From positions 62,001-126,000 of the forward strand of contig NZ_JAJUWT010000021.1 of NCBI RefSeq assembly GCF_021390395.1: 64,000 bases of DNA. Reading direction: 5' to 3'. The position numbers and the translations under genes are program-made. The notes beneath the pieces were generated by a model. It worked only from the letters and a program-made list of their open reading frames with translations. It was not told the origin of the DNA and searched no databases. Positions within the stretch are counted from its first letter, which is position 1. The number at the start of each line of letters is the position of its first letter. Shown in pieces: positions 4,421 to 47,873 of this stretch. Origin of the DNA: Saccharothrix sp. S26. GTDB lineage: Bacteria; Actinomycetota; Actinomycetes; Mycobacteriales; Pseudonocardiaceae.

Positions 4421-4726
4421 CTTCAATCCCCAATCCACGTCCGGTTCTCGGGGCCGACCGTACCAACGTCCGGGAAAACGCCGTCTACATCTGGTCTAGT
4501 GCTGGTAACGACTCGTGTGACGACAGGTGTGGGGATTTTTCCCGATAATTTACCGGGCCGTTCCGGGATACGTCCGGACAAAATCCGGTAACCGGTCGGC
4601 CAAACCTTCGGTTTTACCGGTCGGAGACCGCTTGTGGATCGCCCGCCGGGACGTCGTGCCTAGTGTCGTAAGGGTTTGGGTCGGGGGAAACCCATCGGGT
4701 TTCGGCAAGCGGAGGGCAGACATCCC
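4421..4726. promoter_or_regulatory. Divergent promoter with 11-bp-phased SARP-like repeat array
   Basis: This 306-bp gap separates the divergent aminotransferase and PKS genes. From 4561 the pentamer TCCGG recurs with an exact 11-bp period (4562, 4573, 4584). Degenerate copies extend the phase on both sides (about 4550-4626). CGGTCGG occurs at 4593-4599 and 4618-4624. Heptamers at 11-bp spacing are the known footprint of SARP regulators. Core elements are less clear: TAGTGT at 4661 and GATAAT at 4544 are possible -10 boxes. GGTCTAGTG at 4493-4501 also occurs, reversed, before the SARP gene. Confidence 0.6.
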
Positions 4727-18196: not shown

Positions 18197-21100
18197 ATGG
18201 CGGATGAGAAGAAGCTCGCCGAGTACCTGAAATGGGTCACGGCCGACTTGCACAAGGCGCGCCAGCGCATCACCGAGCTGGAGTCGGGGCGGCAGGAGCC
18301 GGTGGCGATCGTGGGCATGGCCTGCCGCTACCCCGGCGGGGTCGCCTCGGCCGACGACCTGTGGCAGCTCGTGCTCGACGGCCAGGACGCGATCCGGGAC
18401 TTCCCGACCGACCGGGGCTGGGACCTGGAGCGGTTGTTCGACGAGGACCCCGAGACCCCGGGCACGACCTACACCCGCGGGGGCGGGTTCCTCGACGGCG
18501 CCACCGAGTTCGACGCGGAGTTCTTCGGCATCTCCCCGCGCGAGGCGGTGTCGATGGACCCGCAGCAGCGGGTCGTGCTGGAGACCGCGTGGGAGACCTT
18601 CGAGGCCGCGGGCATCGACCCGACCGCGCTCAAGGGCGTCGACATCGGCGTGTTCGTCGGCGCGGGCGAGCAGACCTACCTGGGCCTGCACGGGCCGAGC
18701 GAGTTCGAGGGCTACCTGCTCACCGGCAAGCTCACCAGCGTGGTGTCCGGCCGGGTCGCCTACTCGTTCGGGTTCGAGGGCCCGGCGGTCACCGTCGACA
18801 CCGCGTGCTCGTCGTCGCTGGTCGCGCTGCACATCGCCGCGCAGTCCGTGCGCTCCGGCGAGTCGAGCCTGGCGCTGGCGGGCGGCGTGACGATCAACGC
18901 GACCCCCGGCGGGTTCGTGGACTTCTCCCGCCAGCGGGGCCTCGCCGCCGACGGCCGGTGCAAGTCCTTCGCCGCGGCGGCCGACGGCACCATCTGGTCC
19001 GAGGGCGTCGGCCTGGTCCTGCTGGAACGGCTGTCCGACGCCCAGCGCAACGGGCACCGCGTGCTGGCGGTGCTGCGCGGCTCCGCGGTCAACCAGGACG
19101 GCGCGTCCAACGGCCTCGCCGCCCCCAACGGGCCGTCGCAGGAGCGGGTCATCCGCCGGGCGCTGGCGCAGGCGCGGCTGAACCCGGCCGACGTCGACGC
19201 CGTGGAGGCGCACGGCACCGGGACCAGGCTGGGCGACCCGATCGAGGCGCAGGCGCTGCTGGCCACCTACGGCGCCGCGCACGACGCGGAACGGCCGCTG
19301 TGGCTGGGTTCGCTGAAGTCCAACATCGGCCACGCGGTGGCGGCGTCCGGCATCGGCGGCGTCATCAAGATGGTGCAGGCGATCCGGCACGGCGTGCTGC
19401 CCAGGACGTTGCACGTGGACCAGCCCACCCCGCTGGTCGACTGGGACCGCGGCGGCGTCGAGCTGCTCACCGAGCAGCGGCCGTGGCCGGAGACGGGCCG
19501 GCCGCGCCGGGCGGGTGTGTCGTCCTTCGGCGTCAGCGGCACCAACGCGCACGTGATCCTGGAACAGGCGCCGGACGGCGGTGCGGAGGCCGCGCCGGAG
19601 ACGCCGCTGCCGGTGGTGGCGTGGCCGCTGTCGGCGAAGACGCCGAGCGCCACCAGGGCCCAGGCGGGACGGCTGCTGTCGTTCGCCGAGCGGAACCCGG
19701 AGCTGTCGGCCGAGCGGATCGCCCAGTCGCTGGCCACGACCCGGGCCGCGCTGGACCACCGCGCGGTCGTGGTGGGCGCCGACCGGGAAGCACTGCTGAC
19801 CGGCCTGCGCGCGCTGGCCGAGGACGACGGCGCGGTGCCGGTCCTGGCCGCCGGCCGGGGCGGGCTCGGCCTGCTGTTCACCGGCCAGGGTTCGCAGCGC
19901 GTCGGCATGGGCCTGCGGCTGCGGGAGGCGTTCCCGGTGTTCGCCGAGGCGTTCGACGCGGTGTGCGCCGCCGTCGACCCGCACCTGGACCGCCCGCTGC
20001 GGCAGGTGATCGCCGACGGCGACCGGCTCGACGAGACCGGGTACGCCCAGCCGGCGCTGTTCGCCTTCGAGGTCGCCACCGCGCGGCTCGTGCGGTCGTG
20101 GGGGGTGCGGCCGGACGTGCTGGTCGGCCACTCGGTCGGCGAGCTGGCCGCCGCGCACCTGGCCGGGGTGCTGTCGCTGGACGACGCCGCCGCCGTGGTC
20201 GCCGCGCGGGGCCGGTTGATGCAGCGGTTGCCGTCCGGCGGCGCCATGGTGGCGCTGCGGGCCACCCCGGAGGAGGTCGCGCCGCTGCTGGCGGGTCACG
20301 AGAGCAGCGCCGACCTCGCCGCGGTCAACGGGCCGTCGGCCGTGGTGGTCTCCGGTGACGAGGACGTGGTCACCGCGATCGCGGCCACCGTGGCGTCCTG
20401 GGGCCGCTCGACCAAGCGGCTCGTCGTCAGCCACGCCTTCCACTCCCCGCGGATGGAGCCGATGCTGGCCGAGTTCGGCGAGGTCGTCCGCGCGGTCACC
20501 TTCGCCGCGCCGACCGTGCCGATCATCTCCACGGTCACCGGCGAGATCGCGGGCGCGGACGTGCTGTGCACCCCCGAGTACTGGATCGACCAGGTGCGCC
20601 GGCCGGTGCGCTTCCTCGACGCCGTGCACCGCCTGGCCGACCAGGGCGTCACCGCGACGCTGGAGGTCGGCCCCGGTGCCGTGCTGACCGCGTTGGTCGG
20701 CGACGGCCTCGACGGCCGGGCCGCGGTCACGGCGGTCGCGGGCGTCCGGACCGGCGACGCCGAGCCCGTGGAGCTCCTCGACGCGGTGGGCCGGCTGTGG
20801 GCGGCGGGGGCCGAGGTCGACTGGGCCGGCTACCTGGCGCCGTCCGGCGCGACGGCGGGCCCGCTGCCGAGCTACGCCTTCCAGCGCAGGCGCTACTGGC
20901 TGGAACCGGCCGCGATGCGCGGCGACGGCCAGGGCGGACCGGTGTCGGACCACCCGCTGCTGGAGGCCCCGGTCGAGGTCGCCGGTCGCGACGAGGTGCT
21001 GCTCTCCGGCGCGCTGTCGACGTCCGTCGCGCCGTGGCTGGGCGAGCACCGCCTGTTCGGCGGCCGCGTCGTGCCGTCCTCGGTGCTGCTGGAGATGGCG

Positions 21101-24100
21101 GTGCGGGCCGGCGACGAGGTCGGCTGCCCGCACGTCGACGAGCTGGTGGTCGGCGAGCAGGTGGTGCTGCCGGAGCGGGCCAGGCTGCGCGTGCAGCTCA
21201 CCGTGGAGGCGCCGGACGACGCCGGCAGACGCCGGATCAGCGTGCACACCGGCGCGGACGAGGACCGTCCCGTGTGGACACTGGCGGCCCGGGGCGTGCT
21301 CAGCCCCCGCTTGACCGCCGCCGAGGACCTGATCGAGTGGCCGCCGTCCGGCGCCGAGCCGCTGGACGTGGACCTGTTGCTGCGCCACCGCGCCGACGCC
21401 GGGTTCGCGCTCGGCCCGACGTTCTCCGGCCTGGTGGCCGCGTGGCGGCGGGACGGCGAGCTGTTCGCGGAGGTGCGGCTGCCCGTCGACGCCAAGGCGG
21501 ACGGGTTCGGCGTGCACCCCGCGCTGCTCGACGCCGCGCTGCACCCCGCCGCGCTGCTCACCGGGCACCCCGGCCTCGTCGTGGAGTGGCGCGGGGTGAC
21601 CGTGCACGCGGTGGGCGCCACCGCCGCCCGGGTCCGGATCACCCCGGCCGAGGACGGCGCGGTGTCGGTGCTGCTGGCCGACGCGTCGGGCGCACCGCTG
21701 GCACACGCGGCGGGCGTGGTCACCCGGCCCGCGAGCGAGGACGAGGTCGGCACCGCGCTGGCCCGCCCGGGCGACGCGCTGTTCCGCGTGGCGTGGACGC
21801 CGGTCATCCCGGCGGGGCTGCCCGGCCCGGCCGGCCTGGCCGTGGTGGACGCCGGCGGCGGCACCCTGCCGTGGCCGCAGCGGTTCTCCGGGCTGGACGA
21901 GGCGCTGTCGGCCGCCGGGACGTTCACCGGCCTGGTCGCGCCGATGCTGTCGGCCGCGTCGGACGACGCGGAGGGCACGGTCGCCGACCGGGCGCAGGCC
22001 GCCGTCGTGCGGGCGTTGGACCTGGTGCGCGCCTGGAACGACGACGAGCGCTCCGCGGACGTGCCGCTGGTGCTGCTGACCCGGCAGGCCGTCGACGCCG
22101 ACGACGCGCCGACCGACCTGGCCGCGGCCGGGGTCTGGGGCCTGCTGCGCTCGGCCCAGTCGGAGATGCCCGGCCGGTTCCGGCTGATCGACATCGACGA
22201 CGACCCGGCGTCGCTGTCCGCGTTGCCCGCCGCGATCGCCACGGGGGAGGCGCAACTGGCCGTGCGCGCCGGCTCGGTGGCCGTGCCGAGGCTGGCCCGC
22301 CTCGCACCGGGACGTGCCGCGTCACCGTGGCGACCGGGCGGCACGGTCCTGATCACCGGTGGCACCGGCGCGCTGGGCGCGTTGTTCGCCCGGCACCTCG
22401 TCCGCGCGCACGGCGTCACCGACCTGCTGCTGATCAGCCGCAGCGGCCCGGCCGCACCGGGCGCGAGCGAGCTGGCCGACGAGCTGGCCACGCTCGGCGC
22501 GCGGGTGACGATCACCGCCTGCGACGCCGCCGACCGCGAGTCGCTCGCCTCCGTGCTGGCCGCCGTGCCCGCCGAGCACCCGCTCACCGGTGTCGTGCAC
22601 ACGGCGGGCGTCCTCGACGACGGCATGATCTCCTCCCTGGACGCCGACCACGTCGCCAGGGTGTTGCGGCCCAAGGTGCACGCCGCGTGGAACCTGCACG
22701 AGCTGACCCGGGACGCGGACCTGTCGGCCTTCGTGCTGTTCTCCTCGGTCGCCGGCGTCATCGGCGGTTCGGGCCAGGGCGCCTACGCCGCCGCCAACAC
22801 CTTCCTCGACGCGCTGGCCGCGCACCGGGCGGGCGCCGGGCTCGCGGCGACCTCGCTGGTGTGGGGCCTGTGGTCGCACTCGGGCGGCATGGGCGGCAAC
22901 CTCACCGAGGCCGACCTCAAGCGCATCGCCCGCACCGGGCTGCTGCCGATCAACGCCGACGACGGCCTCACCCTGTTCGACGCCGCACTGCGGGCCGGGC
23001 GCCCGGCGCCGGTGGTGACGCCGCTGGACGTGCGGGCGATGGCCGCCCGACCCACCGCGGTGCCGCTGCTGTTCACCGCGCTGGCCAGGGTCACGTCCCG
23101 ACGGGCCACGCGGGGCGCGGCCGAGGCCGAGCCGCTGTCCCGGCGGCTGGCCGGGCAGTCCGAGCAGCGGCAGCGGGAGCTCGTGGGCGAGCTGGTCCGC
23201 GCCGAGGTCGCCTCGGTCCTGGGCCACGCCGACGCCTCGGCGATCGGCGACGACCAGCTCTTCGCCGACCTCGGCTTCGACTCGCTGATCTCGGTGGAGC
23301 TGCGCAACAGGCTGGCCGCGCACGTCGGCGTGCGGCTGCCCGCGTCGTTGGTCTTCGAGCACCCGACGCCCGCCGCGCTCACCGAGTTCCTGCGCACCAC
23401 CGCGGGCGCGACGGTCGGCGGTGACGACGCCGGCACGGGGGTGGACTTCGAGCGGGAGGTGGTGCTCGACGACGACGTGGTCGCCGCCGACACCGTGGTC
23501 GCCGTCGCCACCGATCCCCGGGAGGTCCTGCTGACCGGCGCCACCGGGTTCCTCGGGGCGTTCCTGCTGCGCGACCTCGTCCGCCGCACCGACGCGGTCG
23601 TGCACTGCCTCGTGCGCGGGGCCGACCAGGCCGACGCGGAGCGCAGGCTGCGGGAGAACCTGGAGTGGTACGAGCTGGCGGGCGAGATCGACCCCGCCCG
23701 GGTGGTCGTGCACGTCGGCGACCTCACCTCCCACCGGCTCGGCCTGGGGGAGGGGGTGTTCGACGACCTCGCCCGCCGGGTCGACGCCGTCTTCCACGCC
23801 GGGGCCACGGTGAGCTGGGTGCGCCCGTACACCGACCTCAAGCGCTCGAACGTGACCGGCACCGTCGAGGTGCTGCGGCTGGCCGCGCGCCACCGCACGG
23901 TCCCGGTGCACTACGTGTCGACCACGGGCGTGTTCGCCGCTTCGCCGGACGACGAGCCGGTGGGCGTCACCGACCCGACCGGACCCGCGCACCTGCTGCG
24001 CAACGGCTACCTGCAGAGCAAGTGGGTGGCGGAGGGCATCCTCGGGATCGCCCGCGACCGCGGCGTCCCGGTGTCGGTGTACCGGGTCGACGTGGTCAGC

Positions 24101-24610
24101 GGTGACCGCGAGAGCGGCGCGTGCCAGACCAAGGACTTCGTCTGGCTCAGCCTCAAGGGCCTGTTGCAGGCCGGGTCGGTCCCGGACCGGTTGACCGGGC
24201 GCACCCACCTCGTCCCGGTGGACTACGTCAGCGGGGCCATCACCGCGCTGGCCGTGCGCGAGTCCTCGGTCAACGGCACGTTCCACCTCTTCAACGAGCA
24301 GTCCATGTCGTTCGGCGACCTCGTCGAGCACTTGCGGGCGTTCGGGTACGACCTGCCCGAAACCGACTGGGACGCCTGGCGGGCGAGGATCGCCGCCGAC
24401 CGCGACAACGCGGTCACCCCGTTGTTCGACTCCTTCGAGGAGCTCAACTCCGAGGGCGCGCGGCCGACCTATCCGCCGATGGACGTCTCGGACACGGAGA
24501 AGGCGTTGGCGGGCAGCGGGATCACCTGCCCGCCGATCGACCGGGCATTGTTCAACAGGTACGTGGACTTCTTCGTCCGCAAGGGCTACTTCCCCGCTCC
24601 GGGGAAGTGA
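18197..24610 (+). CDS. Type I polyketide synthase: extension module 3 with terminal thioester reductase
   Basis: 2137 residues, starting 30 bp after the first PKS gene. The N-terminal helix [20 protein letters not shown] is a coiled-coil docking domain for the preceding subunit. Domain order: KS (Cys204, DTACSSS), AT (GHSVGE, Ser646; HAFH, malonyl type), DH (His951 in HxxxGxxxxP, Asp1112), KR (LDD, Ser1517, Tyr1530), ACP (Ser1696), then a thioester reductase from about 1774. That last domain is a short-chain dehydrogenase fold with the NADPH loop TGATGFLG and the YLQSK catalytic pair (Tyr1938, Lys1942). It would release the chain as an aldehyde by two-electron reduction, or an alcohol by four. 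The adjacent aminotransferase argues for the aldehyde. Module 3 should add a malonyl unit and leave an alpha,beta-alkene. Confidence 0.95.
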
Positions 24611-24803: not shown

Positions 24804-25238
24804 ATGGCCTCCGACAAAAACCGCCTGGCCACTGACGTCGACACGCACCAGGAAATGTTCAACATCGCGTTCAACGCGGGCGACGTGGATGCGGTCAACG
24901 CCCTGTACGTCGATCACGCGATCGGCATGTGGGAGCCCGGCAAGCCGGTCCAGGGCCAGGCGCGCCGCGACTACGTCGAGCACTTCATCAAGACCCGCAA
25001 CGCGACCGTCGAGGCGACCGTGCTCAACCAGATGGTCAACGGCGACATCGCCATGGTGGTGGTGGAGTGGGAGATGGACACCACCCGCGACGGCAAGCCG
25101 GAGAAGCTCAGCGGCCTCGCGGTCGACGTGCTCCAGCGCAGTGAGGACGGCGGCTGGCGTTACGTGATCGACAACGCCTATGCCGGCAACGGCCCTTGGC
25201 CGGCGGAGAGCTCGTTCCCCACGCCCCCGAAGCCCTGA
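24804..25238 (+). CDS. NTF2-like / SnoaL-type small protein of the cluster
   Basis: 144 residues from the ATG at 24804, preceded by GGGAG. The sequence fits the cone-shaped NTF2 fold (DUF4440/SnoaL group): an N-terminal helix pair ending FNAGDVDAVNALYVDHAIGM, then strands seen in AMVVVEWEMD and GGWRYVIDNAYAG. Members include polyketide cyclases, epoxide hydrolases, isomerases and catalytically empty binding proteins, so the fold alone does not give the reaction. I infer a helper for cyclisation, double-bond isomerisation or dehydration of the amino-ketone. It has its own promoter. Its last 61 bp overlap the end of the convergent AraC-type gene. Confidence 0.75.
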   Translation: MASDKNRLATDVDTHQEMFNIAFNAGDVDAVNALYVDHAIGMWEPGKPVQGQARRDYVEHFIKTRNATVEATVLNQMVNGDIAMVVVEWEMDTTRDGKPEKLSGLAVDVLQRSEDGGWRYVIDNAYAGNGPWPAESSFPTPPKP

Positions 25239-26281
25239 CGCGGCGCGGGCGCCGACCATCGCGTCAGCGGGTCGGCGCCCCGCTCGGTCGCCTTGCGGGC
25301 GCGGGCTCCCGTGCCCAGCGAGTGCCGGTAGTCGGTGGGCGTGACGCCGACGTGCGCGGTGAAGTGCCTGCGGAGGTTGGTCGCCGTGCCGAGACCGCTG
25401 GCCTCGCTGACCCGTTCGATCGGCAGGTCGGTGGTCTCCAGCAGGCTCTGGGCGCGGGACAGGCGCTGGTTGAGCAACCACTTCAACGGGGTGAGCCCGG
25501 TGGTCGCCTGGAACTTGCGGAAGAACGTGCGGGGGCTCATGCCCGCCCGCTTGGCCATCGCGTCCACGGTGAGCGGCTGGTCGAGGTTGCCCGCGGCCCA
25601 GTCCATCGCCATCGCCAACGTGTCGTCGTCGTCCTCGGGCATGGTCAGGTCGACGAACTGCGCCTGCCCGCCGGGGCGGTGGCCGGCCACGACCATCCGG
25701 CGGGCCAACTGGCCCGCCACGTACGCGCCGAGGTCGCGGCGCACCAGGTGCAGGCACAGGTCCAGGCCCGCGGTCATGCCCGCGCTGGTGAGGACGTCAC
25801 CGTCGTCGACGTAGAGCACCGCGTCCTCGACCTGCACCCGCGGGTAGCGCTTGGCGAGGTCGGAGGTGTGCATCCAGTGCGTGGTGGCCCTGCGGCCGTC
25901 GAGCAGGCCCGCCTCGGCGAGGGCGAACGCCCCGCTGCACAACGACACCATGCGCGCGCCGGCCGCGGCCGCCTCGCGCAGCGCCTCCACGAACTCCGGG
26001 GCCACCGGGGCGTCGCCCCGCAGCACCTCGTCCGGGACCGACGGGACGATGACGGTGTCGGCGACGACCAAGTCGTCGAGCCCGTGGGTGCCGCGCACCG
26101 AGAAACCGCGCGCCACGGGCTCCTGCTCGGTGACCGTGCAAAGTTTCAATTCATACCAGGGATCGGCGAGATCGGGTTGCGGATCACCGAAGACCGCGTT
26201 CGCGATGGCGGCCTCGTAGACCTCGCAGACCTGCATGTCGGTGCCGTTGATCACAGCGATGGCCACCACACCCGGACCCAT
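25178..26281 (-). CDS. AraC-family regulator with N-terminal GATase1/DJ-1-like domain
   Basis: 367 residues. Residues 1-190 form a DJ-1/PfpI (GATase1-like) domain: VAIAVINGTDMQVCEVYEAA, then VSLCSGAFALAEAGLLDGR with the elbow Cys, and TTHW. Residues 215-320 are the double helix-turn-helix of AraC regulators (MAKRAGMSPRTFFRKFQATT, then IERVSEASGLGTATNLRRHF). This is the FtrA/GlxA architecture; the sensory domain usually binds a small nitrogenous ligand and is not an enzyme. It is divergent from the imine reductase gene across 141 bp, so local control of that gene or of both is likely. Its C-terminal tail overlaps the convergent NTF2-like gene. No strong Shine-Dalgarno is visible at the ATG. 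Confidence 0.85.
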   Translation of the reverse strand: MGPGVVAIAVINGTDMQVCEVYEAAIANAVFGDPQPDLADPWYELKLCTVTEQEPVARGFSVRGTHGLDDLVVADTVIVPSVPDEVLRGDAPVAPEFVEALREAAAAGARMVSLCSGAFALAEAGLLDGRRATTHWMHTSDLAKRYPRVQVEDAVLYVDDGDVLTSAGMTAGLDLCLHLVRRDLGAYVAGQLARRMVVAGHRPGGQAQFVDLTMPEDDDDTLAMAMDWAAGNLDQPLTVDAMAKRAGMSPRTFFRKFQATTGLTPLKWLLNQRLSRAQSLLETTDLPIERVSEASGLGTATNLRRHFTAHVGVTPTDYRHSLGTGARARKATERGADPLTRWSAPAPRQGFGGVGNELSAGQGPLPA

Positions 26282-26422: not shown

Positions 26423-27316
26423 ATGTCCAACCCCAATGCCGCTCAGGCGCCGGTCACCGTGATCGGCCTGGGCCTGATGGGTCAGGCATTGGCCGCCGCG
26501 TTCCTCGGGAACGGGCACCCGACCACCGTGTGGAACCGGTCGGCGCACAAGGCCGACGAACTCGTCGGCAAGGGCGCGGTCCTGGCGCCGTCGGTCAAGG
26601 ACGCGATCGAGGCCAGCCCGCTGGTCGTCATCTGCGTCTCGGACTACGACTCGGTGCACGAGCTGCTGGACCCGGTGGAGGGCTCGCTCGCGGGCCGCAC
26701 GCTGGTCAACATGACCAGCGCCAGCTCCTCGCAGGCCCGCGGCATGGCGAAGTGGGCGGAAGGCAAGGTCGGCGCGTACATCGACAGCGCGATCATGGCC
26801 ATCCCGCCGGGCATCGCCACCGACGAGGCCATCATGCTGTACTGCGGCCCGAAGTCGGCGTTCGACCAGCACGCGGAGACCCTGAAGGTGCTCGCCCCCG
26901 CGGGGACCACCTACCTCGGTGAGGACCACGGTCTCGCCTCGCTGCACGACGTCTCGCTGCTCACCATGATGTGGGGCGTCGAGAACAGCTTCCTGCACGG
27001 TGTCGCGCTGCTGGGCACCGCGGGCGTGAAGGCGACCGAGTACCTGCCGCTGGCCAAGGCGCTCGCCGTGATGACGCTGGGCTTCATCGAGGCCTACGCC
27101 GAGCAGATCGACTCGGGCGACTGGCCCGCCGAGGACTCCACCATCGACACGCACGTCGACGCGATGGACCACCTGCTCGACGAGAGCCGGGAGCTCGGCG
27201 TCAACACCGAGTGGCCCGCGCTCATCACCGCGTTGGGCAAGCGCGCGATCGCCGAGGGCCACGGCCCCGCCAGCTACGCCGCGATGGTCGAGGTGTTCCG
27301 CAAGCCCTCCGCCTGA
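26423..27316 (+). CDS. NADPH-dependent imine reductase (IRED family)
   Basis: 297 residues from the ATG at 26423, with GGAG at 26411-26414. The N-terminal Rossmann domain has GLGLMGQALAAAFLGNGH, and the VWNRS end of strand two fits NADPH. The long inter-domain helix and C-terminal bundle follow, with HDVSLLTMMWG around Asp176. In IREDs an Asp at the equivalent proton-donor position marks the group often called R-selective, while others carry Tyr. Family members reduce cyclic imines such as 1-piperideines to amines. Placed beside a PKS, reductase and aminotransferase that should make a cyclic imine, it gives this cluster an in-pathway substrate. A 16-bp-stem terminator follows, so it is likely its own transcript. 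Confidence 0.85.
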   Translation: MSNPNAAQAPVTVIGLGLMGQALAAAFLGNGHPTTVWNRSAHKADELVGKGAVLAPSVKDAIEASPLVVICVSDYDSVHELLDPVEGSLAGRTLVNMTSASSSQARGMAKWAEGKVGAYIDSAIMAIPPGIATDEAIMLYCGPKSAFDQHAETLKVLAPAGTTYLGEDHGLASLHDVSLLTMMWGVENSFLHGVALLGTAGVKATEYLPLAKALAVMTLGFIEAYAEQIDSGDWPAEDSTIDTHVDAMDHLLDESRELGVNTEWPALITALGKRAIAEGHGPASYAAMVEVFRKPSA

Positions 27317-27323
27317 CCCCTCC

Positions 27324-27425
27324 CCGCCGCGGCGCGCACCGCACCGTGCGCGCCGCGGCGGTGTGCTCCACCCGAGCGGTCGACCCGTAATCGCCTCCGA
27401 AAAGGACGGCGCCGGGTCGACCGCT
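27324..27425 (+). terminator. Strong terminator hairpin followed by a second perfect inverted repeat
   Basis: The first hairpin has a perfect 16-bp stem, CCGCCGCGGCGCGCAC (27324-27339) with GTGCGCGCCGCGGCGG (27346-27361), six bases after the imine reductase stop codon. A second perfect 13-bp repeat follows, AGCGGTCGACCCG (27375-27387) with CGGGTCGACCGCT (27413-27425) and a 25-nt loop. The second could be a further terminator or an operator. Confidence 0.65.
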
Positions 27426-27883
27426 ATTCGGCGTTGATCCGAAAAGTCCCGCCCGCGCCCAACGCCGAACGTCGCTCACAAAACGATTCGCGACGGTTCC
27501 TCGCGTGCACCCATCGGTGTTCGAAGTAACCCGAATGGGTTAGGTAACGGTTCGATCACGGCCGAGTCGAGCCGGTCGCCGAATGCGCTCCGTGCGCTAG
27601 CCTGGCCGCAGTCACTCGAATGCAGGACGGCTGAACGGGGTCACCACCCCTTGTCGTCACACAAAGTAACGACGTTGCCGATGGTCGCTCAGCTATCGCC
27701 ACGCGCCCATCGCAAAAAAGCGTCGGCACATAGCTCGACACATCAGCGAGGTCGTGGTCGCATAACGCGCCGTGTCCGATCGATTACGCCTAACTATCGC
27801 ACGCGTGGCAGCACTGCGTCCATAGTCCGGCGACCGATCACCCGCTATTTCCGCAACGAGTTCCCGGAAGGAAACAAGGGACA
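27426..27883 (+). promoter_or_regulatory. Promoter and long 5' leader of the first amine oxidase gene
   Basis: No gene is seen here. A palindrome TAACCC-GAAT-GGGTTA lies at 27527-27542. A -10-like TAGCCT stands at 27598-27603, directly followed by a block shared with the second amine oxidase promoter (CACTCGAATGC at 27613). This implies a leader of about 280 nt before the GTG at 27884. The last 60 nt of both leaders are also alike (GTCCGGCGAC block, TATTTCCG, then AGGAAAC). Confidence 0.5.
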
Positions 27884-29413
27884 GTGAGCAACGACGTGGA
27901 ACCCACTCCACCCCCGAATCGGGAGCTGCCGCGGCGCAGCGTGCTCAAGGCCGGTGTCGCGGGTGGTCTCGCGATCACCGGTGCGGCGGCCGCGGCGTCG
28001 GCGACGACGGCGGTCGCCGTCGCCGACGAGGCCCAGGCCCCGGAGCTGCGGCGGCACTTCGACGTCATCGTCGTGGGCGCCGGGATGGCCGGCGTCACGG
28101 CCACGCGTGAGCTGCGCGCGAAGGGCAAGCGGGTCCTGCTGCTGGAGGCGCGCAACCGGGTCGGCGGTCGCACGTGGACCGACACCTGGCAGGGCCACCA
28201 GATCGAGCGCGGCGGCACGTGGGTCGACCGCTTACAGCCCCACGTCTGGCGCGAGCTCAACCGCTACCGGCTGCCGATCATGGCCGACGCGGGGCCGACC
28301 AGGGCGTTCATGCCCACCATCGGCGGGTTCGGCGAGTACGACCCGGCCGTGGCGTACGTCCGGCAGAAGGAGCTGTTCACCAGGTTCTTCGACCGGGCGA
28401 CCGAGATCTTCCCGGAGCCGTTCAAGCCGCTGACCCGTCCGGACCTGGTCGCCCAGTTCGACGTGTTCTCGCTGCGGGACCGGCTCGACCAGATGGCCCT
28501 GCCGCTGGAGGACGAGATCCTGCTGACCAGCTGGACCTCGCTGTACGGCGGGACCAGCGAGCGCGGTTCGCTGACCCTGATCCAGCAGTGGTGGGCGTTG
28601 TCCGGCGGCACGTTCGAGGGCTTCCACGGCGTCAACACCTACCGCCCGACCCTGGGCACGGTGTCGATCCTCAACGCCATGCTCGCCGAGGCCAAGCCGG
28701 TCCTCAAGCTCAACACCCCGGTCAAGGCGATCACGCAGACCACCCGCGAGGTCAAGGTCACCACGCAGGCGGGCGAGGTCTTCACCGCGCCCGAGGTGAT
28801 CGTGGCCGTGCCGGTCAACGTCTGGCGCACGATCTCGTTCAGCCCGGCGCTGCCCGCCGCGCACCGCGAGGCGACGACGACCGGTGTCGGCGTGCCGCAC
28901 GAGAAGAAGCTGTGGATCGACCTGTCCACCCCGACGGACCGGTTCGTCGCCGAGGCGCCGGAGGGCATGGGCTACCCGCTGTGCTTCATGGGCCGCTTCA
29001 ACGACGGCCAGCCGGTGGTCGCCTTCAGCGTCGACAGCACGTTCGACACCACTGACGGCGCCGCGGTGGAGCGGGCCGTGCAGAAGGTGATCCCGGGCGC
29101 CAAGATGCGCGACTACATCGCGACCAACTGGCACGTGGACCCGTTCTCGCTGGGTGCGGGCGCGTACCGGCAGCCGAACCAGCTGCTGCGGCTGCACGAG
29201 AAGCTCCAGGCGCCGCACGGCCGGGTCAAGTTCGCGGGCGCCGACATCGCCAACGGCTGGAACGGCTACATCGACGGCGCGATCGAGGACGGCCTGCGGG
29301 TCGCGGGCTCGCCGACGCTGTCCGGCCCGGCGGCCGCGGCGGCCAGCGCCGAGGAGCGGATCGTCGTGCCGAAGGTGAACCGCGCGCTGTACCGCGGTCT
29401 CGGCATCCGCTGA
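27884..29413 (+). CDS. Tat-exported flavin amine oxidase, NicA2-like (copy 1)
   Basis: 509 residues from GTG 27884. The N-terminus carries a twin-arginine signal, LPRRSVLKAGVAGG (Arg17-Arg18), and an Ala-rich h-region, so the folded flavoprotein should be exported. The FAD domain starts with VIVVGAGMAGVTATREL (about 60) and LLLEARNRVGGRTW; the C-terminal FAD contact is VKFAGADIANGWNGYIDGAI. The blocks GTWVDRLQPHVWRELNRY and DPFSLGAGAY recall nicotine oxidoreductase NicA2 and pseudooxynicotine amine oxidase, which oxidise a cyclic or side-chain C-N bond to an imine. I infer oxidation of the cluster's piperidine outside the membrane. A second copy lies directly downstream, with its own promoter and terminators. 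Confidence 0.85.
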   Translation: MSNDVEPTPPPNRELPRRSVLKAGVAGGLAITGAAAAASATTAVAVADEAQAPELRRHFDVIVVGAGMAGVTATRELRAKGKRVLLLEARNRVGGRTWTDTWQGHQIERGGTWVDRLQPHVWRELNRYRLPIMADAGPTRAFMPTIGGFGEYDPAVAYVRQKELFTRFFDRATEIFPEPFKPLTRPDLVAQFDVFSLRDRLDQMALPLEDEILLTSWTSLYGGTSERGSLTLIQQWWALSGGTFEGFHGVNTYRPTLGTVSILNAMLAEAKPVLKLNTPVKAITQTTREVKVTTQAGEVFTAPEVIVAVPVNVWRTISFSPALPAAHREATTTGVGVPHEKKLWIDLSTPTDRFVAEAPEGMGYPLCFMGRFNDGQPVVAFSVDSTFDTTDGAAVERAVQKVIPGAKMRDYIATNWHVDPFSLGAGAYRQPNQLLRLHEKLQAPHGRVKFAGADIANGWNGYIDGAIEDGLRVAGSPTLSGPAAAAASAEERIVVPKVNRALYRGLGIR

Positions 29414-29421
29414 CGCCGCAC

Positions 29422-29510
29422 GTGCCGGGACCGCCCGTTCTCGGAACGGTCTCGGCACGGTCTACGCGAGGTCTTCGGAAATAGCGGTGGCCGGGATTCC
29501 GGTCACCGCT
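29422..29510 (+). terminator. Double hairpin after amine oxidase copy 1
   Basis: Hairpin 1 (29422-29458): GTGCCGGGACCG pairs with CGGTCTCGGCAC, one mismatch, enclosing CCGTTC-TCG-GAACGG. Hairpin 2 (29483-29510): AGCGGTGGCCGG pairs with CCGGTCACCGCT, one mismatch, GATT loop. The same pair follows copy 2, with compensating changes in the stems. Confidence 0.65.
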
Positions 29511-29957
29511 CTCCTCGTTTCCACACCGACAAATCAGACACCGGAAAGGCTCGGCCCCGGTCGGGTCGCGCGGATCGTGCCCGGCGGGCACCGTCAATCG
29601 ACTGTCCGAATATCTCATCGGAGGTCCGAAGTGCAATTCGACGGGGGTAACGGTTCGGTCACGGCCGCTTTGGGTCGGTCGTCGACTGCGCTTCGTCCGC
29701 TACTGTGGGCCGCAATCACTCGAATGCGTGCCGGTATCACCCGTACCGCCACGCCATAGGTCGCCGAGGGTCACGACACCCGCCAACGGCGGACGCGCAT
29801 GGCATGCGCACATCGCAGTTCGGTGTGGGCGAGGACGCTGCACGCCGAACGAGGTCGTGATCACCTCACGCGCTGTGTCCGAAATCGTGAGTCCACCGTC
29901 CGGCGACGGATCGTCCGATATTTCCGGTACCAGGTGCAGGAAAGGAAACGAGGAACA
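29511..29957 (+). promoter_or_regulatory. Promoter and 5' leader of the second amine oxidase gene
   Basis: No gene is seen. The segment from about 29646 matches the region upstream of copy 1: GGTAACGGTTCG, a -10-like TACTGT at 29701-29706, then CACTCGAATGC at 29718. This implies a leader of about 250 nt before GTG 29958. The middle of the leader has diverged from copy 1, while its 3' end is similar. Confidence 0.5.
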
Positions 29958-31487
29958 GTGACCCACGAGAACGAATCCGGCCGACCCGAGGGCCGGGGCC
30001 TGCCGCGGCGCAGCGTGCTCAAGGCCGGTGTCGCGGGTGGTCTCGCGATCACCGGTGCGGCGGTGGCGACGTCGGCCACGACCGCCGTGGCCGTCGCCGA
30101 GGACGCCAAGGACCCGAACCTGCGGCGGCACTTCGACGTGATCGTCGTGGGCGCCGGCGTGGCCGGGGTCACGGCCACGCGTGAGCTGCGGGCCAAGGGC
30201 AAGCGGGTCCTGTTGCTGGAGGCGCGCAACCGGGTCGGCGGCCGGACCTGGACCGACACCTGGCGCGGCCACATGATCGAGCGCGGCGGCACGTGGGTCG
30301 ACCGGTTACAGCCCCACGTCTGGCGCGAGCTCAACCGCTACCAGCTGCCGATCATGGCCGACGCCGGCGTGGTCAAGTCGTTCATGCCCACCCTCACCGG
30401 CTTCGAGGAGCTCGACCCCTCGGTGGCCTACATCCGGCAGGGCGAGCTGTTCACCAAGTTCTTCGAGGACTCCACCAGGATCTACCCGAAGCCCTTCAGC
30501 CCGCTGCACCGCCGCGACCTGGTCGCCCAGTACGACGGGTTCTCGCTGCGGGACCGGCTGAACCAGATGAAGCTGACGCCGGCCGACGAGATCCTGCTGA
30601 CCAGCTGGACCTCGCTGTACGGCGGCACGAGCGAGCGCGGCGCGCTGACCCACATCCAGCAGTGGTGGGCCCTGTCCGGCGGCACGTTCGAGGCCTTCCA
30701 CGGCGTCAACACCTACCGCCCCAAGCTGGGCACGGTGTCGATCGTGAACGCGATGCTCGCCGAGGCCAAGCCCGTCCTCAAGCTCAACTCGCCGGTCAAG
30801 TCGGTGGTGCAGAACCCCGGCAAGGTCACCGTCACCACCCGCGCGGGCGAGGTCTTCACCGCGCCCGAGGTGATCATGGCCGTGCCGGTGAACGTCTGGC
30901 GCAACATCACGTTCAGCCCGGCGCTGCCCGCCGCCCACCGCGAGGCGACGACGGCCGGCATGGGCGTGACGGAGGAGCGCAAGCTCTGGATCGACCTGGC
31001 CAAGCCCTCGTACCGGTTCGTGGCCGAGTCGCCCGAGGGCCGGGGCGACCCGTTCTGCTACATCGGCCGGTTCAACGACGGCGACCCGGTGGTCGCCTTC
31101 ACCGTCGACACCACCTTCAACGAGAACGACGGCGACGCGGTGGAGCGGGCCATCCGGAGGATCATCCCGGAGGCCAAGGTGCGCGACTACGTCGTGACCA
31201 ACTTCGCCAAGGACGAGTTCGCCCTGGGCACCGGCGGGTACCGCCAGCCCTACCAGCTGATCCGGTTGCACGAGAAGCTCCAGCAGCCGCACGGCCGGGT
31301 CAAGTTCGCGGGCAGCGACATCGCCAACGGCTGGAACGGCTACATCGACGGCGCGATCGAGGACGGCCTGCGGGTCGCGGGCTCGCCGACGTTGTCCGGT
31401 CCGGCGGCCGTGGCGGCCAGCGCCGAGGAGCGGATCTTCGTGCCGAAGGTGAACCGCCAGTCCTACCGCGGGCTCAGCGTGCGCTGA
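29958..31487 (+). CDS. Tat-exported flavin amine oxidase, NicA2-like (copy 2)
   Basis: 509 residues, the same length as copy 1 and clearly its paralogue along the whole protein. I start it at GTG 29958 (after GAGGAACA) to match copy 1; frames reaching further upstream are leader sequence. It has the same twin-arginine signal (LPRRSVLKAGVAGG), the FAD loop VIVVGAGVAGVTATREL and the C-terminal VKFAGSDIANGWNGYIDGAI. Differences cluster in the middle third: VVKSFMPTLTGFEELDPSV in place of PTRAFMPTIGGFGEYDPAV, and changed residues near KDEFALGTGGY. This suggests an altered substrate or a second oxidation step. It has its own promoter and double-hairpin terminator, so the copies can be expressed separately. 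Confidence 0.85.
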   Translation: MTHENESGRPEGRGLPRRSVLKAGVAGGLAITGAAVATSATTAVAVAEDAKDPNLRRHFDVIVVGAGVAGVTATRELRAKGKRVLLLEARNRVGGRTWTDTWRGHMIERGGTWVDRLQPHVWRELNRYQLPIMADAGVVKSFMPTLTGFEELDPSVAYIRQGELFTKFFEDSTRIYPKPFSPLHRRDLVAQYDGFSLRDRLNQMKLTPADEILLTSWTSLYGGTSERGALTHIQQWWALSGGTFEAFHGVNTYRPKLGTVSIVNAMLAEAKPVLKLNSPVKSVVQNPGKVTVTTRAGEVFTAPEVIMAVPVNVWRNITFSPALPAAHREATTAGMGVTEERKLWIDLAKPSYRFVAESPEGRGDPFCYIGRFNDGDPVVAFTVDTTFNENDGDAVERAIRRIIPEAKVRDYVVTNFAKDEFALGTGGYRQPYQLIRLHEKLQQPHGRVKFAGSDIANGWNGYIDGAIEDGLRVAGSPTLSGPAAVAASAEERIFVPKVNRQSYRGLSVR

Positions 31488-31495
31488 CCGCGCGC

Positions 31496-31665: not shown

Positions 31666-32853
31666 ATGAGCGCGCCCATCGGCACAACCATGGAACCGGT
31701 CGAGTCGTTGTTCTCGTGGTTCCGCGAAATGCTTGAGTCACAGCCGGTCCGCCACGGCGGCGACCACGGGGTGGAGGTATTCGGTTATGCGGACATCGCC
31801 CGGATCCTCGCCGACACCAAGACGTTCTCCTCGGAGACGGCGCGGAAGTTCAACGAGCCGCACTTCGAGCTCGACCGCTTCGACGAGGGCAACCTGGTCA
31901 CCACGGACCCGCCCCGGCACCGCAAGCTGCGCAAGGTCATCAGCCAGGTCTTCACCCCGCGTGCCGTCGCGAACCTGTCCGAGCGCATCGAGCTGATCAC
32001 CGCCATGCTGCTGGACAAGGTCGCCGACCAGGACTCGTTCGACCTCGTCGAGGCGCTCGCCTTCCCGCTGCCGATCACGGTGATCGCCGACGTGCTCGGC
32101 CTGCCGATCGAGGACGAGCCGATGTTCCGCGTGTGGGGCGACGCGATCGGCGCGCTCGACGCCGCCACCGTGCCGCCCGACCTGCTCGAGCACGAGGTCG
32201 GCCCCGCGCTGAACGAGATGGGCGAGTACTTCCTGCGGCACATGCGCGACCGCCGGGAGAACCCGCGCGACGACGTGATGAGCAGGCTCGCCAACGCGAC
32301 CATCGACGGCGAGCCGCTGACCGACGGCGAGATGATCGGCGTCACCGGCCTGACCATGTTCGCCGGGCACGCCACCACGATGTCGTTGATCTGCACCACG
32401 GTCATCCTCCTGGACCAGCACCCGGAGGCCATGGCCGAGATCCGCGAGAACCGCGAGCTGGTGCCCAACGCGCTGGAGGAGGTGCTGCGCATGTACCCGC
32501 CGTTCCCGCGGCTGGTGCGGGTCACCACCACCGAGACCGAGATCGGCGGGCAGCGCGTGCCCGCCGACCAGCTCGTGACGCCGTGGATCGGCGCGGCCAA
32601 CCGCGACAGCGCCAAGTTCCCCGACCCCGACCGCTTCGACATCCACCGCAACACCGGCGGGCACCTGGTGTTCGGCCAGGGCATCCACTTCTGCCTCGGC
32701 GCGCCGCTGGCGCGGCTGGAGGGCCGGATCGCGCTGAACATGCTGCTCGACCGCTACGCCAAGCTCAGCGTCGACCCGGCGGGCGGCGTGGAGTGGGAGA
32801 ACCCCCACCAGATCATCTGCCCACGCCGCTTGCCGGTGCGGGCATCTCGGTGA
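31666..32853 (+). CDS. Cytochrome P450 of the cluster, lacking the usual I-helix acid
   Basis: 395 residues, a class I soluble actinobacterial P450. Landmarks: TDPPRHRKLRKVISQVFTPR (C-helix), the I-helix FAGHATTMSL, EEVLRMYPP (ExxR), and the heme loop FGQGIHFCLGAPLAR with Cys343. In most relatives the I-helix reads AGxE/DTT; here Ala236 replaces the acid before Thr237, so proton delivery may be unusual. A TAGGAT box at 31653-31658 lies seven bases before the ATG, suggesting a leaderless mRNA. It would oxidise the polyketide amine or ring; site and timing are unknown. Its 3' end overlaps the convergent SARP gene by 41 bp. No dedicated ferredoxin is present in the window. Confidence 0.9.
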   Translation: MSAPIGTTMEPVESLFSWFREMLESQPVRHGGDHGVEVFGYADIARILADTKTFSSETARKFNEPHFELDRFDEGNLVTTDPPRHRKLRKVISQVFTPRAVANLSERIELITAMLLDKVADQDSFDLVEALAFPLPITVIADVLGLPIEDEPMFRVWGDAIGALDAATVPPDLLEHEVGPALNEMGEYFLRHMRDRRENPRDDVMSRLANATIDGEPLTDGEMIGVTGLTMFAGHATTMSLICTTVILLDQHPEAMAEIRENRELVPNALEEVLRMYPPFPRLVRVTTTETEIGGQRVPADQLVTPWIGAANRDSAKFPDPDRFDIHRNTGGHLVFGQGIHFCLGAPLARLEGRIALNMLLDRYAKLSVDPAGGVEWENPHQIICPRRLPVRASR

Positions 32854-35221
32854 TCTCGCAGTACACCACGCGGGCGGCGGTGGCCTGATCGCAGGCGTCG
32901 CCGCCCGCGTGCCGTTCCCGGCGCAGGAACGACGACCCGGAGGCCAGCACCCGCCGCACGTGCCTGCGCCGCGCGTCCGAGTCCTCGCTGCGCTCGGCGA
33001 GCAGGCTCCCGGCCGGGCCCCGCACCCCGCTGTCCCGAGTGGAGCGCAGGAACTCCAGCAACCGGTCGATCGCGGTGTCGGAGATGGGCTCCAGGTTCAT
33101 CATCATCGCGTGCCGCAGCCGCGAACCCCACATCGGGCGGCGCGTGAGCAGGTCCGGTCGCGCGGTGACGACCACCAGCACCGGCAGGCCGGGCAGCGAC
33201 CTCGGCAGCTCCTCGACGAAGTCGACCAGGTGGTCGTCGGCGACGTGCAGGTCCTCGACGACCACGATGACCGGGCCGCACAGGGCGATCTGGCCGAGGA
33301 GGTGCCGCCACGCGCGCAGCACCTCGGCGACCGACACCTCCTGGGGCTCCCGTTCCTGGTCGGGCAGGCCGCCGAGGCAGGTCAGCAACCTGCGCCGCTC
33401 GTCCTCCGACTGGACCAGCCGCTCCACCGCGCCGACGAGCTCGGCCCGCACCGACTCGGCCGGGCCCTGCGGGTCGACGCCGCAGTACGAGCACAGCAGG
33501 TCGTTGAGCACGTCGGTGACGGTGTCCTCGACGAACCGCCGCGCGCGGCCGACCAGGACCCGCACCGGCTCGACAGCGGCGGCGACCCTGCGCTCGAACT
33601 CCAGCACGAACCGGGTCTTGCCGACGCCGGGCTCGCCGAGCACGGTCACCAGGTGCGGCGCGTCGAGGTGCCTGGTGCGGTGCAGGAGGCCGCGCAGCAC
33701 CTCCAGGTCGTGCTCGCGGTCGACCACCGGCATGTCCTGCAACGCCAGGTACTCCTGCCGCAGCCCGCCGACCTGCCAGCCGAACGACGATTCGGCTTGG
33801 AGGTACGTGAAGGCGCGTTCGGTGGCGCGCCGGGTGTTCTCGCACACCCGGATCTCTCCGACCGGGGTCTGCGAGAGCAGCCCGTGGCACTCGTCGAGCA
33901 GGACGCCGCTCACCGACGGCGCGCTGTCGTTGTCCGGGTGGTAGCGCACCAGCACCTCGCCGGTGGCGACGGCGACGTGGACGGCGATGGGCGGCTCGTC
34001 GCACGAGATGTCCGGCAGGCCGAGGCGGTCGCGGATGGTCAACGCGGCGAGGACGGCGCGTTCGGCGTCGTCGTCGGCGGTGCCGGGCACGCCGAACAAC
34101 GCCAGCCAGATCGAGCCGATGGAGGCGGCGAGCGTGCCTCCCAGCGACTCGACCTCGTCGCGGATCGCGGCCGTGGCCTCCTCCAGCGCCGTGTTGCCCA
34201 TGCCCTGGCAGCGCACGATGAGCGCGCTGACGTTCCGGCGCTCCGCCACGATGCTGCGCAGCTGCTGCACGGACGGTGCGGTGGGTGCGGGGGGCGTGGC
34301 CACGATCCCGGCGTCCTCGCGCCCGTCCGGTTCCGGCCCGGGGTGCGGTCTGCGCTGCGCCGGCGGCGACGGGGGGACGGGTGCGGGCTTGGGTTGTTCG
34401 TCGGCCTGCTCGCGGGGCAGGCCGGTCATCCGCAGGTCGATCTGCTGCTGCATCCCGGCCGGGATGAGCCCCGGGTCGTGGGTGAGGATCGCCTGTTGCA
34501 GCGAGCGCAGCGCCGGGCTCGGCTCGAGGCCGACCTTCTCGACCAGCGTGGTGCGCACGGTGTAGTAGGCGTTGAGCGCGTCGGTCTGCCTGCCGCTGCG
34601 GTACAGCGCCAGCATCAGCTGCCCGCACAGGCGCTCGCGCAGCGGCTCGGTGGCGACCGTGCGCTGGAGGTCGGCCAGGATCTGTTGGTGGTGACCCCGG
34701 CAGAGCTCGACCTCGAAGTAGTCCTCCAGGGCGTCGAGCCTCGCGTTCTGCACCGGGGTCAGCTCGGGCCAGTGGATGCCGGACTCGACCAGGTCGGCCA
34801 GCGCCGGCCCGCGCCAGAGCTCCAGCGCTTGCCTGAGCAGCTCGGAGGCGGCCGCCAGGTCGCCCTCGGCGAACTTGGCGCGCCCCGCCTCGACCTTGTG
34901 GTGGAAGTCCTGCACGTCGGTCTGCCCGGGCCCGACGCGCAGCATGTAGCCGGGCGGTTGGCTGAGCAGCACGGCGGAGTCGCTGCCGTTGGTCGACAGC
35001 GCCCGGCGCAACCGCCAGACCGAGTTCTGCACGATCTTGCGGGCCGACAGCGGCACCTTGTCGCGTGGCCACAAGGAGTCCACCATCTGGCTGCTCGCCA
35101 CGACGCGGTTGCGGTTGAGCAGCAGGAGTCCGAGGGCGGCCCGCTGCCGGGTGCCGCCGAGGTCGACCAATTCGTCGCCGCGCACGACCTCTAAAGGTCC
35201 CAGGATCTTGAAGTAGGTCAC
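32813..35221 (-). CDS. SARP-type pathway regulator with cyclase-like and ATPase domains (PimR-like)
   Basis: 802 residues from GTG 35221. Residues 1-95: OmpR-type winged helix (YFKILGPLEV, then ARKIVQNSVWRLRRAL). Residues 100-245: bacterial transcriptional activation domain (BTAD) ending AYYTVRTTLVEKVGLEPS. About 310-480: a class III nucleotide-cyclase-like domain (SALIVRCQGMGNTALEE, then VHVAVATGEVLVRY) without clear catalytic metal-binding residues. About 500-740: a STAND/AAA ATPase with Walker A GEPGVGKTR and Walker B VIVVVEDLHVAD. The order matches PimR/PteR-type activators, which are shorter than AfsR-LAL hybrids. It closes the cluster and is the likely activator of the 11-bp-phased promoter array at 4550-4626. 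A palindrome sits at its own promoter. Confidence 0.9.
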   Translation of the reverse strand: MTYFKILGPLEVVRGDELVDLGGTRQRAALGLLLLNRNRVVASSQMVDSLWPRDKVPLSARKIVQNSVWRLRRALSTNGSDSAVLLSQPPGYMLRVGPGQTDVQDFHHKVEAGRAKFAEGDLAAASELLRQALELWRGPALADLVESGIHWPELTPVQNARLDALEDYFEVELCRGHHQQILADLQRTVATEPLRERLCGQLMLALYRSGRQTDALNAYYTVRTTLVEKVGLEPSPALRSLQQAILTHDPGLIPAGMQQQIDLRMTGLPREQADEQPKPAPVPPSPPAQRRPHPGPEPDGREDAGIVATPPAPTAPSVQQLRSIVAERRNVSALIVRCQGMGNTALEEATAAIRDEVESLGGTLAASIGSIWLALFGVPGTADDDAERAVLAALTIRDRLGLPDISCDEPPIAVHVAVATGEVLVRYHPDNDSAPSVSGVLLDECHGLLSQTPVGEIRVCENTRRATERAFTYLQAESSFGWQVGGLRQEYLALQDMPVVDREHDLEVLRGLLHRTRHLDAPHLVTVLGEPGVGKTRFVLEFERRVAAAVEPVRVLVGRARRFVEDTVTDVLNDLLCSYCGVDPQGPAESVRAELVGAVERLVQSEDERRRLLTCLGGLPDQEREPQEVSVAEVLRAWRHLLGQIALCGPVIVVVEDLHVADDHLVDFVEELPRSLPGLPVLVVVTARPDLLTRRPMWGSRLRHAMMMNLEPISDTAIDRLLEFLRSTRDSGVRGPAGSLLAERSEDSDARRRHVRRVLASGSSFLRRERHAGGDACDQATAARVVYCEITEMPAPASGVGR

Positions 35222-47842: not shown

Positions 47843-47873
47843 CCGGTACCTCCACACCGTCCTGCCCGGTCCT

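Follow-up and report, generated by a model that had tools for sequence, protein, structure and literature searches.

In a 64,000-nucleotide stretch of Saccharothrix sp. S26 DNA (the window), we identified a biosynthetic gene cluster in which an imine reductase (IRED) gene is followed by two tandem genes for NicA2-like flavin amine oxidases with twin-arginine (Tat) signals. We propose that the IRED would form an amine in the cytosol and that the two Tat oxidases would re-oxidize it outside the cell, with the reduced form kept inside and the electrophile released only outside as a means of self-protection; we assign this reading a probability of about 0.5. The product is probably a small nitrogen-ring compound. 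The underlying inside/outside redox idea is already known from other antibiotics, and it is the pairing of an IRED with a NicA2-type oxidase, recurring in two oxidase lineages, that looks new. The genes of the cluster are as follows (positions in the window):

2873..4438, minus strand: class III aminotransferase (PF00202, E 3.2e-60; PigE-type match under the cut-off)
4676..18166, plus strand: type I PKS with KSQ loading module and modules 1 and 2 (Pfam domains)
18197..24610, plus strand: type I PKS module 3 with terminal thioester reductase (PF07993, E 6.3e-65; TGATGFLG)
24804..25238, plus strand: SnoaL-like protein, possible cyclase (PF14534/PF12680)
25178..26281, minus strand: DJ-1/AraC regulator, divergent from the IRED (PF12833, PF01965)
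26414 (GTG) or 26423 (ATG)..27316, plus strand: IRED, predicted cytosolic (PF21761, E 2.4e-40; PF03446)
27884..29413, plus strand: oxidase 1, NicA2-like flavin amine oxidase with Tat signal (PF01593, E 5.7e-44)
29961 (GTG)..31487, plus strand: oxidase 2, NicA2-like flavin amine oxidase with Tat signal (PF01593, E 4.6e-45)
31666..32853, plus strand: cytochrome P450, adjoining the oxidase in relatives (PF00067, E 6.2e-37)
32813..35221, minus strand: SARP/AAA regulator at the far cluster edge (PF03704, E 9.9e-46)

A profile scan recognized no transporter among the cluster proteins scanned, and a sigma-70 promoter scan of positions 26200–31700 gave no match.

Features of arp/stz/cpk-type clusters that are present here are a modular type I PKS whose loading module is of the KSQ type (the loading KS reads DTSQSSSL), a terminal thioester reductase and a class III aminotransferase. 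The PKS has three extension modules, corresponding to a chain of about C8. Module 1 is organized as KS-AT-DH-KR-ACP, and module 2 as KS-AT-degenerate DH-KR-ACP with a Ser-to-Ala change in its KR. The AT of module 2 reads VASH, presumably neither the usual malonyl nor the usual methylmalonyl motif, so the chain could be C8 or C9. Closure of a five-membered carbocycle in the style of abikoviromycin or argimycin was also considered, and chain counting makes it unlikely for a C8 chain. Comparison of the penultimate-module KRs revealed loss of the Ser or Asn that we take to be catalytic in 8 of 8 readable clusters (Herbidospora, G997 and G1163 excluded), compared with 0 of 16 other KR rows. A penultimate KR lacking a catalytic residue predicts a ketone at C5; the aminotransferase would aminate the aldehyde released by the PKS, and the C5 ketone would let the resulting C1 amine close a six-membered imine, making a cyclic imine the predicted substrate of the IRED.

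The IRED matches PDB entries 8j44, 7osn and 3zgy and combines a Rossmann domain with a RedAm-like C-terminal domain. The Asp of its SLHDVSLL motif, which we take to be the functional aspartate of IREDs, aligns with 8j44 and 7osn and is kept in the matches shown. The enzyme had originally been described as lacking a signal peptide, and this was borne out: the Rossmann motif begins 10–15 residues in, the N-terminus is not Tat-like, and none of 26 IRED rows (24 distinct loci, two being counted twice) passed a strict Tat test. A cytosolic location is thus predicted.

Linkage between the two enzyme types is conserved. Wherever the oxidase is at least 55% identical and the locus is readable, IRED sequence adjoins it (11 of 11 loci). 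The count includes G1007, where the IRED match is divided between two frames and may be broken or misread, and excludes G018, whose upstream sequence reads N; for more distant oxidases, an IRED neighbor was present in 2 of 28 loci. Several locus entries are duplicates (L031 equals L002; L044 and L047 equal L033; L010, L034 and L038 are one locus of G018, which equals G026). In the oxidase tree, the IRED-paired oxidases (at least 55% identity) group together with 100/100 support, and a long branch leads to them; the pairing labels need three changes on this tree, one of them due to G018 with its unreadable neighbor. A second oxidase lineage (G814, G963) likewise has an IRED partner. A search of 392 genomes returned 16 IRED matches, the best six of which adjoin a Tat oxidase, while the remaining ten had no adjoining Tat oxidase in the flanks read. 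Conserved around the IRED and oxidases are the aminotransferase, the pair of PKS proteins with its terminal thioester reductase, the SnoaL-like protein, the P450 and the SARP. The aminotransferase adjoins the PKS in Lentzea alba, Herbidospora, G007, G042 and G867 and, in the portions covered, was not found beside it in the remaining relatives; a SARP orthologue adjoins the P450 in L033, L034, L035, L051/L052 and L070. The predicted division between cytosol and outside is conserved in the group of the window, Lentzea, Herbidospora and a presumably Streptomyces-like genus.

The twin-arginine signals claimed for both oxidases in the original prediction were confirmed. Both proteins carry PRRSVLKAG followed by a hydrophobic stretch and an AxA-like site, judged by eye. 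The oxidase 2 frame extends back to 29799, and the GTG at 29961 was chosen as the best start because the Herbidospora orthologue starts at the equivalent place. In the PDB, oxidase 1 best matches 7khn (E 4.5e-75) and 5ttj (E 7.7e-74), the latter being NicA2, whose N-terminus aligns with the oxidase at the RRS motif. The strict Tat test was passed by 14 of 14 cluster oxidases, compared with 1.6% of their shuffled N-termini (G018, whose N-terminus reads N, was excluded), and export of both oxidases via Tat is predicted. Of 28 further actinobacterial homologues examined, 26 likewise carried Tat signals. Export is therefore no peculiarity of the IRED pairing and, being widespread in the family, by itself lends weak support to self-protection; it may have been inherited with no selection for protection. 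This counts against the proposed self-protecting scheme, in favor of which stand the conserved division, the gene linkage and the cyclic imine predicted from the PKS.

The prevalence of Tat signals also fits an argimycin-like logic without self-protection, in which the IRED would serve ring chemistry involving the P450 and SnoaL-like protein, and the oxidase would be a late tailoring enzyme whose export is incidental to the Tat signal of its family. Such a role has a precedent in argimycin P, where the IRED ArpDHII occurs with ArpO, an oxidase needed for the late pyridine forms (PMC5820336). It also agrees with three loci (L053, L062 and L063), streptazone-like by our reading, in which two SnoaL-like genes flank a Tat oxidase and the flanks read contain no IRED. 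However, it leaves unexplained both the invariant adjacency in the readable loci and the second pairing lineage, and we regard it as a possible but not a likely explanation.

We rejected the assignment of the oxidases as NicA2-like cytochrome-c dehydrogenases, no cytochrome c partner being found in window positions 1–36000; the cluster contains no haem-c protein, and the only CXXCH match in the open frames of that region is not credible, as it belongs to a frame of 175 residues within the PKS1 gene. Most tested Tat-bearing enzymes of the superfamily without a neighboring cytochrome c were O2-using oxidases (PMC12224317), so the missing partner points to the O2-oxidase subtype. NicA2 is itself a catabolic enzyme acting on nicotine, and NapU over-oxidizes its own product to an inactive form, which would be consistent with oxidases that destroy the product or foreign amines outside the cell, by over-oxidation or catabolism, and so cut their outside concentration. 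We consider this improbable, since the oxidases sit in a biosynthetic cluster between the IRED and the P450, and no catabolic gene or cytochrome c was recognized among the cluster genes.

A relative of the AraC regulator adjoins an IRED in L087 and L088 with no oxidase in the flanks read, suggesting that the AraC–IRED pair was probably recruited. These loci, and the reduction of re-entering product by NapW, would suit a detoxifying IRED with its own AraC regulator that reduces re-entering product and has no role in assembly, but this is very improbable given that ArpDHII reduces a pathway imine and that the SnoaL, IRED, oxidase and P450 genes are co-directional, with short gaps and no AraC match, in G007, G042, G1163 and G867. 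The adjacency of IRED and oxidase in these same genomes also led us to reject an unrelated regulator–reductase neighbor as the whole story.

Comparison with orthologues gave a dN/dS of 0.22–0.29 for the IRED and for each oxidase, indicating purifying selection; given this and the intact frames, we rejected the idea that one oxidase copy is a pseudogene. The oxidases OX1 and OX2 differ at 17 fixed amino-acid positions, five of them in residues 416–427, beside the aromatic-cage position of NicA2. Compared with NicA2, the oxidases here have Gly in place of the cage Trp and Tyr in place of the Asn. The second IRED-paired lineage retains the cage Trp lost in the first, so the substrate site is not a common mark of IRED pairing. 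A further feature that looks new is that OX1 and OX2 have kept differences close to the active site even though gene conversion appears to have acted on them. Two oxidases are present in only 3 of the 11 readable loci, and one in 8. This weighs against the proposed reading, as do the retained cage Trp of the second lineage, the split IRED of G1007, the ten IRED matches with no oxidase in the flanks read, the three label changes on the tree and the lack of a recognized transporter among the proteins scanned.

From these features, we infer the reactions, their order, actual export and the toxicity of the product as follows. The short PKS–thioester reductase–aminotransferase pathway would deliver a 1-amino-5-keto chain of about C8, which would close in the cytosol to a 2-substituted cyclic imine. 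The IRED would trap this imine as a stable secondary amine, to be tailored by the P450 and the SnoaL-like protein. The amine would then leave the cell and be dehydrogenated by the two exported oxidases, probably in two different steps, to a final imine, dihydropyridine or pyridine/pyridinium. A reduced form inside and an electrophilic form outside would protect the producer, as in NapW/NapU. In a bolder version, which we hold tentatively and think rather unlikely in its entirety, an IRED with a Tat-exported amine oxidase would be a recurrent self-protection module in alkaloid pathways of actinobacteria, with at least two origins; in the lineage of the window, the doubled oxidases would each remove two electrons in turn, taking a C8 tetrahydropyridine from the amine through dihydropyridinium to pyridinium, the reactive species arising only outside, with gene conversion homogenizing the pair and selection keeping the substrate-site differences.

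IREDs enjoy popularity as biocatalysts, and little is known of their biological contexts (PMC10851217). The conserved pair of IRED and exported oxidase would offer one such context in nature, in which a C=N bond is switched reversibly by enzymes on either side of the membrane, and a genomic marker for alkaloids whose active imine or iminium may form outside the cell. If the two oxidases perform successive steps, they would be candidate enzymes for aromatizing cyclic amines.

Among known systems, the arp cluster resembles that of the window in its KSQ loading, terminal thioester reductase, aminotransferase, SnoaL-like proteins, SARP, IRED and late oxidase, ArpO being likened to the window oxidases by role, from its description. 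The arp PKS has five extension modules (C12) and the cluster two SnoaL-like proteins, whereas the window has three (about C8) and one, respectively; the window also has two tandem oxidases and a P450 (none of the 14 arp genes encodes one), and no ArpDHI- or ArpK-like gene was recognized in its cluster. Among the literature matches listed for an IRED with an amine oxidase or an alkaloid PKS, an incomplete set, no such exported pairing appeared beyond the argimycin papers. Cyclizidine shares with the window a non-functional KR leaving a ketone in the penultimate module and thioester reductase release, and cyclizidine and iminimycin share an aminotransferase and formation of iminium species; they have seven and eight modules, respectively, compared with three extension modules here. 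The window oxidases share PF01593, the Tat signal and the best solved-structure match with the NicA2/Pnao family, but lie in a biosynthetic context with no cytochrome c partner seen.

Reduction inside followed by re-oxidation outside is an established self-resistance scheme, that of NapW/NapU (PMC8648761), in which a cytosolic NADPH-dependent reductase of C=N is combined with a flavin oxidase that is secreted via Tat and takes the reduced form as its substrate. The original prediction had presented the pairing with an IRED as the new part, a claim not supported in view of this scheme and of ArpDHII and ArpO in argimycin P. Its secreted-oxidase precedent, coelimycin, was not confirmed: two papers on coelimycin do not use the word "secreted" anywhere in their main text. 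SfmCy2 and NapU are documented cases. SfmO1 and SfmCy2 of saframycin, the latter of which deaminates, are cases related to NapW/NapU of naphthyridinomycin. Like NapW/NapU, the window places a cytosolic C=N reductase and a secreted flavin oxidase, as judged by predicted family and localization, in one cluster. The scaffolds are NRPS-derived in NapW/NapU and PKS-derived in the window, and NapW is an SDR and NapU/SfmCy2 BBE-like, in contrast to the IRED (PF21761) and PF01593 NicA2-type oxidases here; the two systems may therefore work alike, though they are not built from the same families.

The imine reductase (IRED) and the two tandem NicA2-like flavin amine oxidases lie within a compact cluster in the window, which makes up 64 kb of a 9.08-Mb genome. 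The gene order is as follows:

2873-4438, minus strand, class III aminotransferase
4676-18166, plus strand, PKS protein 1
18197-24610, plus strand, PKS protein 2 with C-terminal thioester reductase (TR)
24804-25238, plus strand, SnoaL-like protein
25178-26281, minus strand, DJ-1/AraC regulator
26414 or 26423 to 27316, plus strand, IRED (two possible starts)
27884-29413, plus strand, oxidase 1
29961-31487, plus strand, oxidase 2 (start GTG at 29961)
31666-32853, plus strand, P450
32813-35221, minus strand, SARP/AAA regulator

A PPOX/F420-type protein (TIGR03618; about 2375-2785, plus strand) is located at the cluster edge. Its relatives are also present at the edge of the Lentzea alba and Herbidospora cretacea clusters and directly adjoin a stand-alone IRED in three other loci (L083, L084 and L086); a functional link between PPOX and IRED is possible. 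The window also contains a 1043-aa protein (41558-44689, plus strand) in which a TIR domain at the N-terminus is the only Pfam domain type at E <= 0.001, adjoining a winged-helix regulator, as well as another large regulator of SARP/TPR type that lies outside the cluster (44873-48070, minus strand), an additional P450 (53550-54974) and an S-adenosyl methyltransferase (54854-55846).

The linkage was examined at loci whose oxidase shares 55% or more identity with oxidase 2 (near loci, n = 12: the window, L. alba, H. cretacea, and genomes G007, G042, G499, G1007, G997, G1130, G1163, G867 and G018, the last assigned by kinship to the window's genus). Near oxidases occurred in 5/390 genomes of the window's family (counting the window and L. 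alba, G233) and 6/392 of a group inferred to be a Streptomyces-like genus. Upstream sequence was readable at 11 near loci. Every one of these 11 has an IRED sequence, with about 59-100% identity, as the neighbour of its first oxidase, and a P450 at the opposite flank. The IRED match in G1007 (L055, about 301-1192) falls in two reading frames, so the gene may be broken there, or the sequence may contain an error or be misread. Of 28 loci with more distant oxidases, for which flanks of about 1.5 kb per side were read where the contig allowed, two contain an IRED (G814 and G963). A reverse search of the Streptomyces-like group detected an IRED match at E <= 1e-95 in 16/392 genomes; the six best adjoin the oxidase, and the remaining 10 have no adjoining oxidase within the flanks read.

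In a tree of 43 oxidases, those of the 12 near loci formed one clade (support 100/100), and the G814 and G963 oxidases occupied a separate supported place beside those of G1041 and G1109, both oxidases with two flanking SnoaL-like genes. The pairing therefore either originated two or more times or is older, with repeated losses. In G963 (L071, 15431-18100), the adjoining Tat oxidase and IRED are accompanied by a P450 and by a gene judged by eye to be acyl-CoA-dehydrogenase-like, with no PKS, TR or aminotransferase match within the 40 kb read; it is the same pair in a different kind of cluster. Three Streptomyces-like loci (L069 13388-15640, L051 10987-13539 and L076 16532-18815) contain extra FAD-dependent monooxygenase-like and NAD(P)-binding (NmrA-like) genes, named by eye, between the TR and the SnoaL-like gene, and could be indolizidine-type clusters. 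A second contig of G018 (L067) contains another PKS-alkaloid-like region with two aminotransferase, two SnoaL-like and one P450-like matches, together with a Tat oxidase (42% identical).

The N-terminal region of each oxidase carries PRRSVLKAG, a stretch of hydrophobic residues and, judged by eye, an AxA-like site; the IRED Rossmann fold begins 10-15 residues from the N-terminus. A strict Tat test, based on the general motif, required twin Arg, permitted residues at the following positions and at least 11 uncharged residues afterwards; the G018 oxidase, whose N-terminus reads N, was excluded. As first noted, both oxidases carry predicted Tat signals and the IRED has none: 14/14 cluster oxidases passed, compared with 0/26 IRED rows (two loci counted twice) and 1.6% of shuffled cluster-oxidase N-termini. 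The inside/outside split is real as a prediction. Since 26/28 other homologues also passed (shuffled, 1.4%), the predicted Tat signal is a trait of the oxidase family, not a mark of IRED pairing. NicA2 has an RRS motif aligned with the oxidase twin Arg, and NicA2 and Pnao are described with Tat signal peptides (PMC12224317).

The PKS bears on the IRED substrate. The AT motif is HAFH, which we take to specify malonyl, in the loading module, module 1 and module 3, and VASH-type in module 2, where the DH is degenerate and the KR catalytic Ser is replaced by Ala. Checked in relatives as a prediction from the window, the penultimate-module KR had lost what we take to be the catalytic Ser or Asn in 8/8 clusters read (window, L. 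alba, G007, G867, G042, G499, G1007 and G1130), and both residues were kept in 16/16 other KR rows. TR release and transamination are predicted to leave an amine at C1 and a ketone at C5 and so to yield a six-membered cyclic imine, the substrate type that an IRED needs. By module count the chain would be C8, or C9 if the module 2 AT takes methylmalonyl. The loading KS motif is DTSQSSSL, with Gln in place of Cys, as described for the argimycin loading domain (PMC5300972). The KR arrangement is that described for cyclizidine, in which a non-functional KR leaves a ketone one module ahead of TR release (PMC11278551).

Two oxidases are present only in the window, L. alba (L033) and H. cretacea (L035), with G018 unreadable. 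Third-position differences between copies within a genome (0.18, 0.15 and 0.09) did not exceed those between species (0.19-0.22); in parts of the Herbidospora pair, third positions are nearly identical. In the window, dS was 0.208 between copies versus 0.28-0.37 between orthologues, and dN/dS was 0.73 versus 0.22-0.29, together suggesting gene conversion with amino-acid differences retained. Seventeen differences between oxidases 1 and 2 are fixed in all three genera, five of them within residues 416-427, flanking Gly426 (this density in any 12-residue window was reached by 62/20,000 random placements); redundancy between oxidases 1 and 2 is therefore unlikely. In the alignment, Gly426 corresponds to NicA2 Trp427, presumably (as to both numbering and role) a residue of the aromatic cage, reportedly the subject of a published study. 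Among the homologues aligned, this position holds Gly or Pro in 15/15 PKS-linked-clade oxidases and Ala in G163; all others readable there have Trp. Because the IRED-paired G814 and G963 oxidases keep Trp, its loss in the alignment tracks the clade, not the pairing.

The observation of a predicted cytosolic IRED beside oxidases predicted to be exported is confirmed and is stronger than on first reading, because relatives have kept the linkage and the PKS gives an independent prediction of the IRED substrate. In the cytosol, the IRED would fix the cyclic imine as an amine, which would then be tailored, and the exported oxidases would re-oxidise it outside the cell. Self-protection by the pair is a plausible hypothesis; export alone is no argument for it, and the general idea of redox self-protection is already known. 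Apart from the argimycin enzymes, the literature matches listed, covering few subscription journals, showed no exported pairing of an IRED with an amine oxidase. The word "secreted" is absent from the main text of two coelimycin papers (PMC8062868 and PMC9733639). In the argimycin papers (PMC5820336 and PMC5300972), enzyme location lies outside the discussion, and "secreted" and "signal peptide" are both absent from the main text.

In argimycin P biosynthesis, reduction of nigrifactin by ArpDHII gives argimycin PVII, and the pyridine forms require ArpO (PMC5820336). The same paper cites work reported in 1973 on an enzyme that oxidises the amine, forming the imine of abikoviromycin. In naphthyridinomycin self-resistance, NapW acts in the cytosol to reduce a reactive C=N, and NapU, which is secreted, reactivates the product outside (PMC8648761); Tat signals are carried by SfmCy2 and NapU (PMC11375781). 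ArpDHII/ArpO and NapW/NapU are the closest functional precedents seen for the proposed IRED-oxidase scheme.
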